This document shows, piece after piece, positions 24,205 through 63,334 of a stretch of 64,000 bases of DNA (position 1 is the stretch's first letter; each line of letters begins with the position of its first letter). This stretch comes from Xestospongia bergquistia (Eukaryota > Porifera > Demospongiae > Haplosclerida > Petrosiidae). The translations under genes were made by a program, and so were the position numbers. The stretch is from assembly GCA_963965975.1 (NCBI GenBank), contig OZ014412.1:3226501-3290500 (forward strand), written 5' to 3'. Below the pieces are notes generated by a model. It was given only the letters and a program-made list of their open reading frames with translations. It searched no databases and was not told where the DNA came from.

Positions 24205-26307
24205 TCAATGTCTTATCACACCATATGCTGTACATGTGCTCATCTCTAGGTTAGTTACTATATCAACATTCTCATATTGAGGTATAATTTGATGAGGGAC
24301 AATATCTGCTAGTGGATTAACAGGAGCTGGTACAATACCTACAATGGATAATACCATTTAGAAACTATTCCCACTGTTAGTATTACCTTGTCTCAGTGAC
24401 GTAGTTCTTCTTATCCAACATATCACTATATGTACTAGTACAGTACATACCAGTATTAGAACAGACACACCCACTACACTACCTGTGTAAAACATTATAA
24501 TATGACCAATACAAAAAAGTCTCAGCAAATAATTTTTAATTTGTCATTAATTTTAGTGAAAAAGTTATTTCACATTGTTCAAATGAATTTTATTAATAAC
24601 AATCACCTCCCAATACAGCTGTCAGACAATTAGTACTGTTATTCACTTGTACGTCTGTATAATGTAAATGTAGATAAGGTATGTATGTGTCACTGAAAAC
24701 TGAGACATTCATGTTTTAGCAATACAATAAAAATGTTTTCTGACAGCTCACTTGCTCCTAGTACTGTAACCATGGAAACAAAACACATAGGACAGGACAC
24801 TTTAAGAGATGGATAGGTTGGTTCCAATCCAGTAATAGTGATATTAGTAGATGATATTGCCCAGTTATCTGATAATGTACCCTCCTCTTCAATATCATAT
24901 ACATACATATTATATATACCACTAGGTAGATCATATGTACATCCAATTACTGTACTACTACATACTGGAGAACGCATCAACGATATGTTAGTGCTGTAGG
25001 TAGAGGAGGTTAATGAAATAAGACAACCTTTAACAATAGCTCCTCTTATAAAATGACAGCTGTAACATGTTCTACCAATATTACTTAGGTCATTATATAA
25101 GGTAGCTTCAGTAATATCATATGTACCTAACAAATGAGAAAGTATTAGTACTTACTAGATGTTATCATTGTTATCTCACTTAGTATAGTTGATTCTGTTA
25201 CACTTATAACAATTCCACTCAATAAAGATAAAGTCATTGCTGTCCTCCATATTTTATTCTCAGTTATATTTAGCATAAGAATAGCGGCAACAACAGCTCC
25301 TTCATTAGTTATAGTTATTGAATTATTTAGAAAAGAATTATCTTCATTGTATATAACAACATTTAGTTGAGCTGACTCCACTATATGTGGACATTGTTGA
25401 AGTTCCTAGAACAGTCCATGATATAGTGTATATACAATGAATGGTCTATAACTTACCAAATCATATATTGTTGTATTCAAAATCCAACCATTAACTGATC
25501 TGATGAATGTAGTTGTTAAATTACTTATATTAACTAAAGAATAAGAATAAGAAAACACCATACTCTTTACTTAGTTTATTAGTAATAATACCTTCTGGTA
25601 CTACAACTGATGTGGTACTTATCTCTCCTACTCCAGCTGAGTTATTACCAGCTACACTAATTGTATATGTACCAAATTGACTGGGACAGTACTGCCATGT
25701 TGTAGAAGATGTAGTGTTCTGTGTAACTAGCTCTCCTCCATAAGTAACACTGATGATATAACAATGTATGGACATCAGAGAGAAGGGAGGAGACCAGGAA
25801 CAGTTTATATACTGACTTTGCACATGACATATCAAGTTGTTGACAGCAGCTAGTTCACCTAATGAGAGGAGATATAATGACATATATCAGAGAGTGTTTT
25901 ACCTTGTATTCTTAGAGTAGATTCACTAAAATTAAAATACTTATTATTGTTGACAAATCCTGCAGCAATACACTTCACTACTGTATTGTTATATTGAGGA
26001 TATCCAGGCATGGTAAGATTTGATTGTTGTGGTCCTCCAGTTGTAAACATACCAAGTTTGATAATCTCATTGTGACCATAACCTGTTCCATTAATATTCC
26101 AAGTAATTCCCACACCAGTATGATCCACTGAACAACGGTAATATGCTAGTTGATAGACTCCAATGATAGGAGATGGAATAAATGAGAATCGAACAGCTGT
26201 CAGTAATGAAACTAAAATAAATCATTTGTTACTGATGCTATCATACCTGCACATTCTAATATAACAAATCGAAACAATGTCAGCCATGTTGTCTTCACTA
26301 GATCCAT
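24205..26307 (-). CDS. Family 2 receptor with tyrosine-containing tail
   Basis: Predicted 533-aa receptor in nine exons: 26247-26307, 25903-26196, 25592-25858, 25457-25533, 25156-25405, 24752-25126, 24607-24654, 24387-24482, 24205-24338. Order: signal peptide (MDLVKTTWLTLFRFVILECA), Ig (21-118), FN3 (119-207), two-exon beta-rich segment (208-316, VNISNLTTTF then ELQQCPH), Cys-rich module (317-441; TCYSCHFIRGAIVKGC, CTYDLPSGIYNMYVYDIEEE, SCPMCF), 16-residue linker, TM (458-480, VVGVSVLILVCTVLVHIVIC), tail to 533. The tail has PQYENV (a YxN site that could bind Grb2-type SH2 domains) and TAYGVI, which fits TxYxx[VI]. Signalling is inferred. Exon sizes match the + strand paralogue at 18344 for the first three domains. 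The TM and tail exons define a subfamily with 39096-41056 and 54118-55819. Confidence 0.85.
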
Positions 26308-31384: not shown

Positions 31385-31850
31385 TTTTACTGATATATCT
31401 AATATACTACTAGTGGACATATACTGGTAATATTACTGATATATCTAATATACTACCAGTGGACATATACTGGTAATATTACTGAAATATCTAACATATT
31501 ACCAGTAGACATATACTGGTAATATTACTGAAATATCTAACATATTACCAGTAGACATATACTGGTAATATTACTGAAATATCTAACATATTACCAGTAG
31601 ACATATACTGGTAATATTACTGATATATCTAATATACTACTAGTGGACATATACTGGTAATATTACTTATATATCTAATATACTACCAGTGAACATATAC
31701 TGGTAATATTACTGATATATCTAACATACTACCAGTGGACATATACTGGTAATATTACTGATATATCTAATATACTACCAGTGGACATATACTCGTAATA
31801 TTACTGATATATTGAATATACTACCAGTGGGCATATACAGGTAATATTAC
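31385..31850. repeat. 46-bp minisatellite, about 10 units
   Basis: The unit is tactggtaatattactgata+tatctaatatactaccagtg+gacata with few variants. The same unit forms a shorter array at 46377-46495. Confidence 0.92.
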
Positions 31851-34800
31851 TGATAATTATAATGATTATATAGGACATATAATACATTGGTATAATATAT
31901 TGATTATCATTATCTGTATCAGTAGTGCCATAAATAATATTGAACACTCATTGTATTATAATGTATACTATAATTATTACTATGTAATAATGTATATGTT
32001 ATTACTAGTGTTCAGACTTTTTATGAAGTTCCAGAGTTTAGGACATCAGACTTCTGGAATATTACCTTTACTGATATATCAATTTGGTATGAGTATAGTT
32101 GTAAGAACACATAACGTATACACCTGCAATTATTTTTTTAAGGATGACATATTATTAATATGAAATCACCATTATATTTTCATTATATAAATTGTTAACA
32201 TGAACTCTAGTATTAGAACCATACAGGGAGGGACTTCTTAGTTATTAATATAAATCTTACCGAAGCCATACTCAAAGTGTAAATTAAATCCGTCCAGCTC
32301 TCTCATTTACAAATTGCAAAGAGATAGGAACTTAATAATAAGTTTCTCATTTGTTGTACTCTGGTAGTTGACATGTGTATTTCACTGTAAAAATTAATAT
32401 GTTTAGAATTGGTTTGAAATGAATTAGTTAACAATTTGACAACATAATTTTTAACTTGGTTGATATATTAAGATATAAAATAATAACAGCTCTCAAATAA
32501 TATAATCTCTTTCATCAGCTTTATCTTTAACTTAACACTTTACAAGTACACCTATCTAGTGGGCACTATTATAATAGTAAACAATATATCACAATAATAG
32601 TTATTCAATAGCATACTATTATGGTTATAGTGTCCCTCTTATAAGGAGTTAAAGTGGTCACAATCAACATAGAGAGTTAAACACTTAAACAAAGAAAATG
32701 ACAACTACATCAATGAATTTAACAGTCTAACCACTAGAAAACATAAGTGATGACTATTATTCAAACAATAGATTGGTTTTTATGAATCAAAAAGTTATAA
32801 TACTACATAATATGTACACAATGATATTTCCCTTACATAACCTCATATATAATATATCATTATATGTACATTCTATATAGTTAGCTAATGGGCCTAGTAC
32901 ATGATATATATGTTACTATAGTCAGCTAAAGGGGAATTTTAATGATTACTCAAATTTAAAATAGTCATTAATTCAAAGTTTTAACAAATTTACTAATCAA
33001 CATCTATGGCATGTACATAATTTAATACTTCTATTAAACTATATAGTTCTCTAAATCAGGTAAATAAGTTTATAACAATAAATAAAGTGTTAACATTATT
33101 TTATGTCAGATAATATAAAAGTATGTTATTTTTCTCACTACACAATAGAGTCCATAGTTATAATTACTATATTATATATCTTATTTACTTTGGTATACAG
33201 TTTATTTTGTGAAAAAGAACAAAATGTCAATGTCAATTTGACTTTTAGCAACAATCACAATGATCATATTAGTGTAGACTAATTTAACTTTACTACATAA
33301 TAAATACATTGGTAGTTATAATTATTAATGTTATATTGTAAACACAATTTGATGAAACATGCTATTTGTTCCATGTAGTTATGTGTGTACTTTGACTGCT
33401 AGTATAATTACATAGGTAATTATAATTACAATGTTATGTTGTTACAATTTATTTTTACAACAACAATTATATCGATGTCACTGTTTGTGTTAAAAGACGA
33501 TAATTACTACACTTTGTTCCTTCAACAAATTCTTTCTCATCAACCAGGTACATACAATGTCATATAATAATATAAATGGAGGAGGTTACATCTCATATCA
33601 GCCGATAAAATTAAATGTTATTATTATTATTACTTCATTAATAACAAAGTAATGTTTTGTTAGTTTCATTTGATGTTAACAAAATACTTAAAGTGAACAC
33701 CAATTGTGTAATATTTAGGATAGGGATCAAATCACTCAAATATTGAGAAAATGAATAAATTCTTGACCTGTTATTTCACAATAATTATCAAAACATTATA
33801 TATAGTTGACATTCCATGTATTGTAATGTTTATGTTAAATAGATTACTGAAGAGAACTTCATAGTAAACTAAGTAAATTGATTGTGTAGGATACATCTCA
33901 TAGAATTAAATATGTTAACTAGATATCAATTCTAAAACAATAGTGATTGTTTAAATTGCATAATGTAATACTTTGCAATTATAATAACTGCATGAATAAC
34001 CAACTACATTAGTTTAGGAGGAGATATTTATAAAATATAATGACAGCATTTGGCACAACTATACAGCAACAACATTTGATAAGGTAAATCAGTGAGATAA
34101 TTATAATGCGAGTAATCAAATTGTTTGCAACGGACATTCAATTTACAATATTTCATTTGAAAGTAAAAGTATTAAAACAAACAAAATATAACAATATAAT
34201 ATTAGTACATATTTGTTAGAATGTGGTTATATATATGAGTACATTGTATTAATCATTACATTGATAGCTAATGATATTGACACCACTATATACTAGTACA
34301 GTTATAATATAATATTTTATGGTCTTGGGCTGTGATCTAATAGGTAAGTAGAAGAATGTGTCATTAGAGGCCCTTATTTTTGATTTACTTAACTATTTTA
34401 TGAGCTAGTATTGGACTGCATTTAAAGAGATATATCTGAATACTATATTAACAAGTCTCCCAAATATAGAGAGTTTCCTTAACACGAAGTGTTCTTTATG
34501 ATAATAAATGACCCAGCAAGATAAGGAAGGATAAATTGCTATCATGAGCTAACTAAGTATTAAGACTTATATGACAAATAGATGTGTTACTTTATTCCCT
34601 ATACATACATCTCTTTGATATTGGTCATCACCTTCTATCCACAATCTGAGTATATGCTAATGTTTAGATACAAAGAAAGATAAGGTTCCACTGATCATTT
34701 TTTGTTCTATTACTATAGAGGACATATATCTGTAAACAACCTAATTAAACAATGACTAGAATTTAATATGAAAGAACAGTATATAGACATAAGTTATATA

Positions 34801-46370: not shown

Positions 46371-46376
46371 AAGGTG

Positions 46377-46495
46377 ACATATACTGGTAATATTACTGAT
46401 ATATCTAATATACTACCATTAGACATATATGGTAATATTACTGATATATCTAATATACTACCAGTGGACATATATGGTAATATTACTAAATTGTT
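46377..46495. repeat. 46-bp-type minisatellite, second locus (2-3 units)
   Basis: Same unit as 31385-31850 (ggtaatattactgatatatc, then taatatactaccagtggaca). The flanking sequence after it also matches that locus, so unit and flank were duplicated together. Confidence 0.85.
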
Positions 46496-59000: not shown

Positions 59001-59799
59001 TTCACAAACACTTCTTTCACATATATTCATGTGTATGTATGATAGAAGACAACAGTAATGGTGTTTGTTGTCCTTAGAAATTAAGACAAGAATGATTTAT
59101 GTATAAATAAGTCAATTGAGTTATGTATATGTATAGACTAGTACTGTCCAGATAATATCAGTGTGTAGTAACTCACCCCTTTGAGCATATAATGCTGCTA
59201 GCTGTCATATCATAACGTATATCTAATAGCTTTGTACACTAAAGTGGATGAGAGAACTATGAAAATGTTACTTAATAGCATTAAAGTCTTCTGTCAGTAC
59301 GAGAAAAACAAAAGGATTTTCTTTTCTCTATAAGCTTTAATAAAACTACCTGATCATAATATATTCTATATAAATTATCACTATCCATAATGTCAACATG
59401 TACACATATTCCAATATTCTAAATCTAGCAGCTGGTAATAAACCATATACCACTCTATTCACCAGACATTGACATTCTTTACATCACATTTCATTACGTA
59501 TAATATTATAATTATCTAAGGAAAAGTGTCTCCTAGTGACCTTGGTCCTTCTTGTCATAAGAAAACCACTGTATAACCATTTATAGAAATTTTATGATTT
59601 TCCTTCTTAAAGATATGATGATATACATAGGAACATCAGAATAAACGTCTTGAGAATCTAGAATTATTATTATTATTAAAATTAACAAAATTAGAAAAAT
59701 TTAATTTGTTACGTGTTGAAATAACACAGAGTAAGAACAATCGAAAGGTATACGGAGATGTTACAAAAATTTCATTGATTTGAGATTACTACTGAAGAA
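59001..59799. other. Upstream region of the 59800 receptor; no gene seen
   Basis: AT-rich, with nothing supported except likely promoter and 5' UTR sequence close to the start codon. Confidence 0.35.
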
Positions 59800-62709
59800 A
59801 TGACGATCCTGAAAACCTTCATCATCATAAGTCTATGTTCTTACGTTTCGGGTGAGATTATACATGTATGCATGTATGTACGTATATATGTATGTATTTA
59901 ACACTGAATCTACGTAATTGTCTAAAATGAAGTTGCCCAATAGTCATTATTTCAAGTTTTGCTCCAACTCTTAGCCACAACCTTATGTTTTAGAGTTAAG
60001 GTGTTTCAAGGTTATGGTATATCAAAGAGTCTTAACTCTATGGAGAACATAAGCTTTATAAATATTAAACTTATACACTTTAAATTAGTTGTGCATTCAA
60101 AACATCCACAGTTCAGAATACTACACATCACTCACTCTTCCTATATATGAGTTTACTACAGTCTGAACACTCTAGATACTCTGTTAAAATAAGCATTATA
60201 ATTATTGGGGTAACAGATTTAAATTAGGGAAATAATATAGTATTGCATCATTTCACCATCCCTTCCCTCTGTTGGGCACATACATAGGGCATGAAGCCAG
60301 CCATGTCCCAGCATCTTATTAAAAAAATTCTAACAAAAGCTGCATAAACCAGAGTACATTAGTAATCACAATAGTATAATGTGTACTTTCATTGAATCAA
60401 ACAGTTTTATTAACCTGTATAACTATATTTTATATTTGTTTAATCAACAAAATGTATTATAATATACTGTTTCATTGGGTCCCATTAAGTTCCATTAGGT
60501 TCAACTGTTCCAAATGCTCAAATGTTCAAAACTTTCATTACGACCTTTAGGTTTTAAAGGTTCCATTAGATTCTATTAGGATTCAAATGATCCTTTGGTT
60601 CCATAGGTTTCATTGGGTTCATTAGGTTCATTAGGTTCCATTAGACTCCAAAGTTTCCATTAGGTCCTATTATGAGAACCTGAATGTCATTCTGAGATTA
60701 AGTTTTATGATTCATTTTAATTATAATTATAGCTGTCCAGTTCAAATTTACTCCATCTCCTAATATTGGAGTCTATCAACTAGCACATTACCAATGTTCA
60801 GTAGATCATACTGGAGTGGCTACTACTTGGAATGTTAATGGAACAGCTTCCAATAATGATGATGTTATTCAACTTAGTATTGTTACAATTGGAGCAGGAT
60901 CATCTAACTCCAATCTTACCATACCTGGACACCCTCAATATAACAATACAGTAGTGAGATGTTTTGCTGCAGGATTTGTTGATGGTAGTCTCTACAGTAA
61001 CTTTGATGATACTACTCTGAGAATACAAGGTAACACACTTTCTAATATATGTCATTACAACTCCTCTCATTAGGTGAACTAGCTGCTGGCAAAACTTCAA
61101 TAACTGACAAATTGCCTTTGTCTTCATCACCTAATTGTAAGTTACTATGTTATTAGAACAATTATTCATAATTTATACCACAGCAAAAGATAATAAAGAA
61201 AACCCTATCATTATTATTATATTATGTAGCTAATGCTGTTCAGTTCATATTTACTCCATCTCCTAACATTGGAGTCTGTCAACTAGCACATTATCAATGT
61301 TCAGTTAATCATACTGGTGTGGGTATTACTTGGAACATTAATGGAACAGCTTCTACTAATGGTGACATTATCCAACTTGGCATTGTTACAATTGGAGCAG
61401 GATCAAATAACTCCAGTCTTACCATACCTGGATATCCTCAATATAACAATACAGTAGTGTTTTGTATTGCATATGGACTTTTGGATGTTAAAGATGATAA
61501 CAGTAGCTATTACAACTTTGATAATGCTACTCTGATAATACAAGGTAACGCACTCTCTAATATATGTCATTATAACTCCTCTCATTATGTGAACTAGCTG
61601 CTGTCAATACTTCAACAACTGACAAATTGCCTTTGTCTTCATCACCTAATTGTAAGTTACTATGTTATTAGAACAATTATTCATAATTTAAATCACAGCA
61701 AAAGATAATAAAGAAAACTTTTCACCAATAGCTACAAGTAGTAAGTTCATAAGTCACCATAAGGCAATATGTTATTAGAACAATTATTCATAATTTTACC
61801 ACAGCAAAAAGTAATGAAGTAGAAGCTACAAGTAGTAAGTTCATAAGTCACTATGTTATTAGAACAATTATTCATAATTTTACCACAGCAAAAAATAATG
61901 AAGTAGAAGCTACAAGTAGTAAGTTCATAAGTCACTATGTTATTAGAACAATTATTCATAATTTTACCACAGCAAAAAATAATGAAGTAGAAGCTACAAG
62001 TAGTAAGTTCATAAGTCACTATGTTATTAGAACAATTATTCATAATTTTACCACAGCAAAAAATAATGAAGTAGAAGCTACAAGTAGTAAGTTCATAAGT
62101 CACTATGTTATTAGAACAATTATTCATAATTTTACCACAGCAGAAAATAATGAAGTAGAAGCTACAAGTAGTAAGTTCATAAGTCACTATGTTATTAGAA
62201 CAATTATTCATAATTTTACCACAGCAAAAAATAATGAAGTAGAAGCTACAAGTAGTAAGTTCATAAGTCACTATGTTATTAGAACAATTATTCATAATTT
62301 TACCACAGCAGAAAATAATGAAGTAGAAGCTACAAGTAGTAAGTTCATAAGTCACTATGTTATTAGAACAATTATTCATAATTTTACCACAGCAAAAAAT
62401 AATGAAGTAGAAGCTACAAGTAGTAAGTTCATAAGTCACTATGTTATTAGAACAATTATTCATAATTTTACCACAGCAGAAAATAATGAAGTAGAAGCTA
62501 CAAGTAGTAAGTTCATAAGTCACTATGTTATTAGAACAATTATTCATAATTTTACCACCAGCAAAAAATAATGCAAACAAATTTTCACCAATAACAATGA
62601 GTAGTAAGTTTATCATAGTTTGTATGTTTCTTTTATTATGATTTATATATTAGGTCTCATTGTGGTTATTGGATTGACTGTAGTAGGTATTATAATCATA
62701 TTTCCATAA
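59800..62709 (+). CDS. Tailless two-Ig receptor with microexon-array stalk
   Basis: Predicted 396-aa protein (all microexons included). Exons: 59800-59851 (signal peptide MTILKTFIIISLCSYVS), 60733-61029 (Ig 1, 18-116), 61074-61136 (linker), 61230-61544 (Ig 2, 138-242), 61598-61651 (linker), 61699-61740 (42 nt), nine 30-nt exons at 84-bp steps from 61805 to 62506, 62562-62603 (42 nt) and 62654-62709 (TM, LIVVIGLTVVGIIIIF, then Pro and stop). Every junction is phase 1. The FN3 exon of the paralogues is reduced to its first codons (GELAAG) spliced to KLPLSSSPN. The Ig exon with its linker was duplicated. Before the second linker the normal attag acceptor became attat, and a new one (aactag) is used, still in phase. 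Each microexon adds TKNNEVEATS or the E variant. No cytoplasmic tail. AATAAA at 62806. Confidence 0.78.
60480..60675. repeat. Degenerate ttccattaggtt repeat in intron 1
   Basis: About 200 bp of variants of a 10-12 base unit (gttccattag, gtttcattggg, gttcattag), immediately before the Ig exon of the 59800 gene. Confidence 0.75.
61741..62561 (+). repeat. 84-bp tandem array carrying nine microexons
   Basis: Nine units with exons at 61805, 61889, 61973, 62057, 62141, 62225, 62309, 62393 and 62477, each 30 nt and each separated by a 54-nt intron that starts GTAAGTTCATAAG and ends TTTTACCACAG. Units are almost identical; the notable change is AAA to GAA in units 5, 7 and 9, so the last six units alternate as pairs. 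Unit 1 has AGT for the first AAT. Confidence 0.9.
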
Positions 62710-62805: not shown

Positions 62806-62811
62806 AATAAA
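62806..62811 (+). terminator. Polyadenylation signal of the 59800-62709 gene
   Basis: AATAAA lies 97 bp after the stop codon at 62707-62709. Confidence 0.5.
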
Positions 62812-63206: not shown

Positions 63207-63334
63207 TCATTGACAATACATATGTTCATCAGTAGTAGGTAGCGTATTAGTGATCATATCAACATTCTCATATTGAGGTATTACTTGATGAGGGACAGTA
63301 TCTGTTAGTGGATTAATAGGAGATGATACAGTAC
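63207..63334 (-). pseudogene. Lone last exon of a family 2 receptor
   Basis: After an acceptor (ttatattatag) the minus strand reads GTVSSPINPLTDTVPHQVIP, then QYENVDMITNTLPTTDEHMY before the stop. This is the cytoplasmic tail exon of the 24205-26307 subfamily, with the YENV site kept but the terminal TAYGVI part replaced. The TM exon expected upstream (higher coordinates) was not found before the window end, so it is either debris or the end of a gene starting beyond 64000 with a long intron. Confidence 0.5.

Follow-up and report, generated by a model that had tools for sequence, protein, structure and literature searches.

We wanted to know whether an 84-bp tandem array of small candidate exons encodes part of a surface protein, as an earlier note on this DNA had proposed, or whether it is repetitive DNA without coding use. 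The array lies in a window of 64,000 nucleotides (C2:3226501-3290500, where C2 is the genome contig carrying the window; positions without a prefix refer to the window). The features of the gene containing it, referred to here as the array gene, are collected in Table 1.

Table 1. Predicted features of the array gene, positions in the window.
Feature	Position	Strand	Basis
Exon 1, putative signal peptide MTILKTFIIISLCSYVS and split codon, phase 1 donor GTGAGA	59800..59851	+	spliced chain
Ig domain 1 (Ig1) exon, phase 1-1	60733..61029	+	open frame, paralogue matches, fold
Linker exon GELAAGKTSITDKLPLSSSPN	61074..61136	+	spliced chain
Ig domain 2 (Ig2) exon, phase 1-1	61230..61544	+	open frame, paralogue matches
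Stalk exon (second)	61598..61651	+	spliced chain, copy comparison
42-nt mini-exon 5' of the array, SKDNKENFSPIATS	61699..61740	+	script; homologue C2:3291267-3291308 in the neighbouring gene
Open frame across the array including introns, 272 codons (816 bp), no ATG	61753..62568	+	script
Nine 30-nt mini-exons, 84-bp spacing	61805..62506	+	TRF, core script, alignment
42-nt mini-exon 3' of the array, TKNNANKFSPITMS	62562..62603	+	script
Last coding exon, SLIVVIGLTVVGIIIIFP and stop; GPI-like or tail-less membrane end	62654..62709	+	spliced chain

Anatomy of the array

The array was detected by TRF at 61758-62573 (9.7 copies, 98% matches) and was the top-scoring repeat of the window. Short cores were searched for with a script, on both strands, as stretches of 21-63 nt running from CAG or TAG to GTAAGT, with a length that is a multiple of three and open in phase 1. 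TRF and the script recovered what the earlier note had described, namely nine 30-nt cores in 84-bp units with 42-nt cores on both flanks. The units have cores starting at 61805, 61889, 61973, 62057, 62141, 62225, 62309, 62393 and 62477 (the last core is 62477-62506), and each of the nine lies between CACAG and GTAAGT. The AG and GTAAGT borders were intact in 11 of 11 cores, the two 42-nt cores included. Of the 62 such cores that the script found in the window, 14 fall in the array region; the other 48 include three readings of the array gene's own larger stalk exons. Since 48 other cores occur in the window, a single core alone is weak evidence for an exon, and the weight rests on the exon chain. 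The tandem array is far beyond chance.

The mini-exons had been called identical, which was not exactly the case. Alignment of the units revealed two variable sites, both inside the cores: unit 1 carries AGT where the others read AAT (S for N), and units 5, 7 and 9 carry GAA instead of AAA (E for K). The previously described alternation of K and E over the last six units (4-9) was therefore confirmed, and growth by pairs is supported for these six units. The E variant makes the acceptor CAGCAG, a tandem acceptor of the NAGNAG type, which would also allow an exon of 27 nt in units 5, 7 and 9.

The nine units are separated by eight identical introns, which agrees with the recent expansion with conserved introns suggested before. 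Each of these introns is 54 nt long, a multiple of three, and stop-free in the core frame. The intron before unit 1 is 64 nt long, with a 10-nt insertion and two stops, and the intron after unit 9 is 55 nt long, with one extra C and the acceptor CCACCAG; neither is a multiple of three. We noted the stop-free introns of suitable length and gave them no weight: in a fixed frame, about 30% of the window's 54-nt stretches lack a stop, and every third length is divisible by three. The openness of the array by itself means little as well, since its opposite strand is likewise open (271 codons). Introns of 54-64 nt fit the intron size of the family, in which 44 nt separate the Ig exon from the next one at 22 of 30 loci measured; the pattern did not pick up the other eight, which by eye look no different. 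All cores are phase 1-1, matching the exons on both sides, and by arithmetic the frame is kept whether a unit is included or skipped, as had been claimed, and also if an internal intron is retained. Each retained internal intron would add 18 residues and no stop.

The gene and its family

The predicted chain of 17 exons is open from ATG to stop and comprises 1188 coding nt before the stop, that is 396 residues, so the open spliced protein proposed earlier holds, with its frame running through the array. The encoded layout is a putative signal peptide, two Ig domains, a stalk and a C-terminal hydrophobic segment. The eleven mini-exons contribute 354 nt, or 118 stalk residues, and the exon borders from Ig1 through the last exon are phase 1 throughout. 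Exon 1 is the least certain exon of the model, because no other copy of 59700-59870 was found in the genome. No DNA similar to the last coding exon was found elsewhere in the genome either. By eye, the linker exon starts like the FN3-like exon in the paralogues. For the second stalk exon an alternative acceptor has to be assumed: ATTAG, the acceptor of the first copy, has become ATTAT here, with its last base at 61588; GAACTAG, nine bases past 61588, provides the next AG and keeps phase 1. Retention of the single-copy introns flanking the array would bring stops or a change of frame, so splicing would be needed to reach the membrane exon.

An Ig-like fold, asserted in the earlier note, received moderate support; an Ig beta-sandwich, paired cysteines and a core Trp were found. 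A search of the PDB by sequence gave nothing significant (best E 0.17). The word receptor fared worse. The C-terminus reads, by inspection, NNANKFSPITMSS-LIVVIGLTVVGIIIIFP-stop, which would suit a GPI signal, and the frame stops right after the hydrophobic segment, whereas the paralogues continue into a basic, in several of them tyrosine-bearing, tail. Because the protein would end there without the paralogue tail, a GPI-type anchor appears likelier than a signalling receptor.

We searched the genome with the Ig exon and obtained 163 candidates, 150 of which were scored; 143 of 149 matches lay on C2, with up to 81% identity to the exon in the window. A very large cluster at C2 2.74-4.36 Mb holds, in both orientations, many Ig exons that are 65-80% identical to Ig1, and the array gene has its homologous Ig exon inside this cluster. 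Most of the cluster paralogues have FN3-like, D3 and D4 domains (by eye). These domains and the usual TM exon and tail were not seen between Ig2 and the last exon of the array gene, which is a shortened member of this large clustered Ig family. In appearance, the cluster itself suggests a complex of recognition receptors. Twelve related proteins, with Ig and FN3-like parts, came from ENA contigs, and the query protein P0002 had no relative among viral contigs.

Some further observations concern the family. Tail exons with QYEN[VI] are present on the minus strand of the window at about 24208-24321 and 63210-63317, and also in loci L018, L029, L037, L038 and L039; most of them have an A-Y-x-x-I motif. 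We take these motifs to resemble SH2-binding or ITIM-like sites, and the array gene has none of them. Distant D4-like matches (27-35% identity) were seen on C2 at 0.44-0.67, 1.4 and 2.3 Mb, perhaps in further related clusters.

Origin of the array and competing readings

Beyond the array gene itself, the stalk DNA matched only the adjacent gene (genome searches, three candidates past the first screen in each). This gene has a single 42-nt core about 2.2 kb past the last core of the array gene, with the same kind of acceptor and GTAAGT, followed by the usual TM exon (by eye), and we took this core as the putative unexpanded state. Three diverged single copies thus retain the 42-nt core with AG and GTAAGT, one on either side of the array and one in the neighbouring gene. 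In a fourth copy, which follows Ig1, the core is truncated and its donor is missing. At its start the array intron resembles the intron that follows the first 42-nt core (GTAAGTTCATAAGTCAC), and at its end the introns that precede this core (TATGTTATTAG...), as expected if the duplication breakpoints lay inside introns. The core of the array unit is 12 nt shorter than the 42-nt core, and both this shortening and the core substitutions leave the frame open.

The adjacent gene (C2:3290908-3291500, L006/L038) looks like a truncated chimera, in which an Ig-like remnant (by eye) is fused to D4, the stalk core and the usual TM exon and tail; its D4 is 94% identical over query residues 22-103.

On balance, we think that this is probably the gene of a small Ig-domain surface protein, most likely GPI-anchored, with a stalk built from tandemly duplicated mini-exons of variable copy number. 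Unequal exchange or slippage, its breakpoints lying within introns, would have duplicated an ancestral 42-nt stalk exon together with its intron; the unit would then have lost 12 nt in frame, leaving 30 nt, and grown in single and double units. The short introns would be removed one by one to give transcripts with many or all units (up to 118 residues, 61699 to 62603). Since every unit keeps the frame, the length of the stalk could change stepwise: differences in copy number between haplotypes, perhaps with partial skipping or retention, would alter it in steps of 10 (or 28) residues, and with it the distance of the Ig domains from the membrane. We would expect length differences mainly from repeat number, with skipping or retention giving minor products.

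Whether the units are included cannot be predicted from sequence: the introns, at 44-64 nt, are short, but the cores with their 30 nt are even shorter, and micro-exons are problematic for splicing. In one account, recognition goes to whichever unit is shortest, be it an intron or an exon (PMC1831480); other papers state that intron and exon length act differently in different eukaryotes (PMC6142364) and that micro-exons pose special splicing problems (PMC8378409). In the sponge Amphimedon, 73.1% of strongly skipped exons are multiples of three, compared with 43.2% of unskipped ones (PMC6142364), so frame-neutral skipping of units would be plausible if the array gene belongs to a sponge. Exons for the C-terminal domain of fibrillar collagen mark the genome as that of an animal; its size, base composition and intron length suggest, as a guess, a demosponge.

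A more far-reaching version, which we regard as speculative and rather improbable, is that the array forms a digital length-setting cassette, a coding, splice-competent minisatellite in one GPI-type member of the Ig cluster. Inclusion of a unit would add 10 residues, use of the tandem acceptor 9, skipping 0 and retention 28, all in frame, and repeat number and splicing would jointly set the distance between Ig domains and membrane, varying between individuals and between the transcripts of one individual.

The array could instead be an intronic minisatellite, derived from an exon fragment and removed whole within one intron that joins 61651 or 61740 to 62562 or 62654; the frame would then be kept trivially, because all borders are phase 1. 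The cluster holds a second array. Five 72-bp units located 13 kb away (C2:3302365-3302726, L039:2065-2426) span the end of a juxtamembrane exon and its donor, with about 82% identity to paralogue exons, and have stops in all three sense frames while being open on the opposite strand. Fragments from exon borders in this family can therefore give rise to non-coding arrays, and the 84-bp array may likewise have no function. Divergence of the stalk points the same way: the 42-nt cores of the array gene and its neighbour differ at 3 of 42 sites, all three changing the amino acid, and the introns preceding these cores differ at 3 of 47. As core and intron diverge alike, the stalk sequence shows no sign of selection, an outcome predicted by an unconstrained linker and by non-coding DNA alike. 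Between the two cores that flank the array, 10 of 42 sites differ. However, the borders of all eleven cores have stayed intact, and to pass over so many close sites every time would hardly be the simplest outcome. Moreover, the window and L038-L040 contain five arrays with a period of at least 20 and five or more copies (26, 46, 56, 72 and 84 bp); those with periods divisible by three are the 72- and 84-bp arrays, and only the latter is sense-open. We consider removal of the whole array as an intron possible, although unlikely.

Stalk arrays did not turn out to be a common theme at 29 other paralogue loci, where TRF found no stalk array of at least three copies within 1.5 kb either side of the Ig exon, a span that reached the TM motif GSLVGVS in 16 of 29. 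L022 has a two-copy 28-bp repeat near its stalk (2883-2939), and L025 has a 27-bp array upstream of its Ig exon. Related 46-bp and 45-bp arrays are present in the window (31387-31855, 46376-46487) and in L040 (5301-5435). One of their frames reads GNITDISNILPVDIY, which is tail-like by eye; 46 bp is not a multiple of three. We did not count these arrays as receptor-derived, as BLAST ties them only to each other.

It is quite improbable, in our judgement, that the whole gene is a decaying, recombined family member with the array as a by-product. Such a pseudogene would account for the missing FN3-like, D3 and D4 domains and cytoplasmic tail and for the acceptor lost at 61588, and the neighbouring gene also looks truncated; yet the complete frame is open over 17 exons and is followed by AATAAA at 62806. 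The dN/dS between Ig1 and Ig2 was 0.52, below the pairwise median of 0.68 among paralogues. In comparisons with 29 paralogues it ranged from 0.35 to 0.89 for Ig1 and from 0.37 to 1.02 for Ig2, the upper value for Ig2 coming from one paralogue. The Ig exons are not visibly decayed.

Translation of the array as 28-residue repeats with its introns retained is very improbable, since the 816-bp open frame, although it is the frame of the cores, has no ATG and is interrupted by the first and last array introns, with two stops in the first, and openness of 54-nt stretches is common in the window. For the same reasons, no ATG and a frame broken at both ends, an independent gene or a repeat protein was rejected as the main reading. 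The Pfam match to PmbA_TldD_1st (28.8 bits, cut-off 20.9), obtained with a shortened piece of the array frame, was treated as an artefact, as it was summed over the repeats and no single stretch passed.

Comparison with known systems

The exact core pattern had 0 matches in public genome contigs, and among the literature matches listed no paper was found on this stalk layout or such an Ig cluster. By description, the cluster is similar to the Alr allorecognition complex of Hydractinia, in which genes of Ig-superfamily surface proteins are clustered in an early-branching animal; we know of no stalk-exon arrays there. Schistosome micro-exon genes (MEGs) encode secreted parasite proteins that are not known to have Ig domains, and their micro-exons are diverse in sequence, unlike the near-identical copies in the Ig protein described here. 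The repeats of PSGL-1 (SELPLG) are not known to have an intron between them.

Very small symmetrical exons make up most of the MEG coding region and serve alternative splicing (PMC4350168); this is not so in the array gene, where 354 of 1188 nt lie in mini-exons. PSGL-1 shares a pre-membrane stalk of ten-residue repeats in variable number, from 7 decamers in pig to 18 in chimpanzee and rhesus, with longer compound units in some species (PMC2174952); it differs in its mucin-like domain and in sequence.

The earlier statement that no described receptor has this layout is overstated in view of human IGHG3. According to PMC8674132 (text and Table 4), it has two to five tandem hinge exons of 15 residues, their number varying between individuals, which gives 32-77 residues in steps of 15, and the same source puts the hinge repeat at about 200 bp. 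In both genes a spacer of an Ig protein would come from tandem, near-identical, small in-frame exons, in our case as read from sequence anatomy. The human repeat is larger, has fewer copies and forms an antibody hinge, while the array gene has 30-nt cores in nine 84-bp units and a membrane-proximal stalk.

The IGHG3 hinge exons, MEGs and the PSGL-1 decamers are precedents, so the kind is already known; what appears new to us is that nine copies of a 30-nt core, with introns of 54 nt, are placed next to the membrane. If spliced as read, the locus would show exon duplication caught in the act, with an unexpanded exon in the neighbour, nine units with identical introns and every intermediate in frame, and stalk length in a possible recognition system could be measured by simple genotyping. 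Under the same condition, a surface family of invertebrate type would have reached the solution of the IgG3 hinge, in which the length of a spacer is set by exon copy number.
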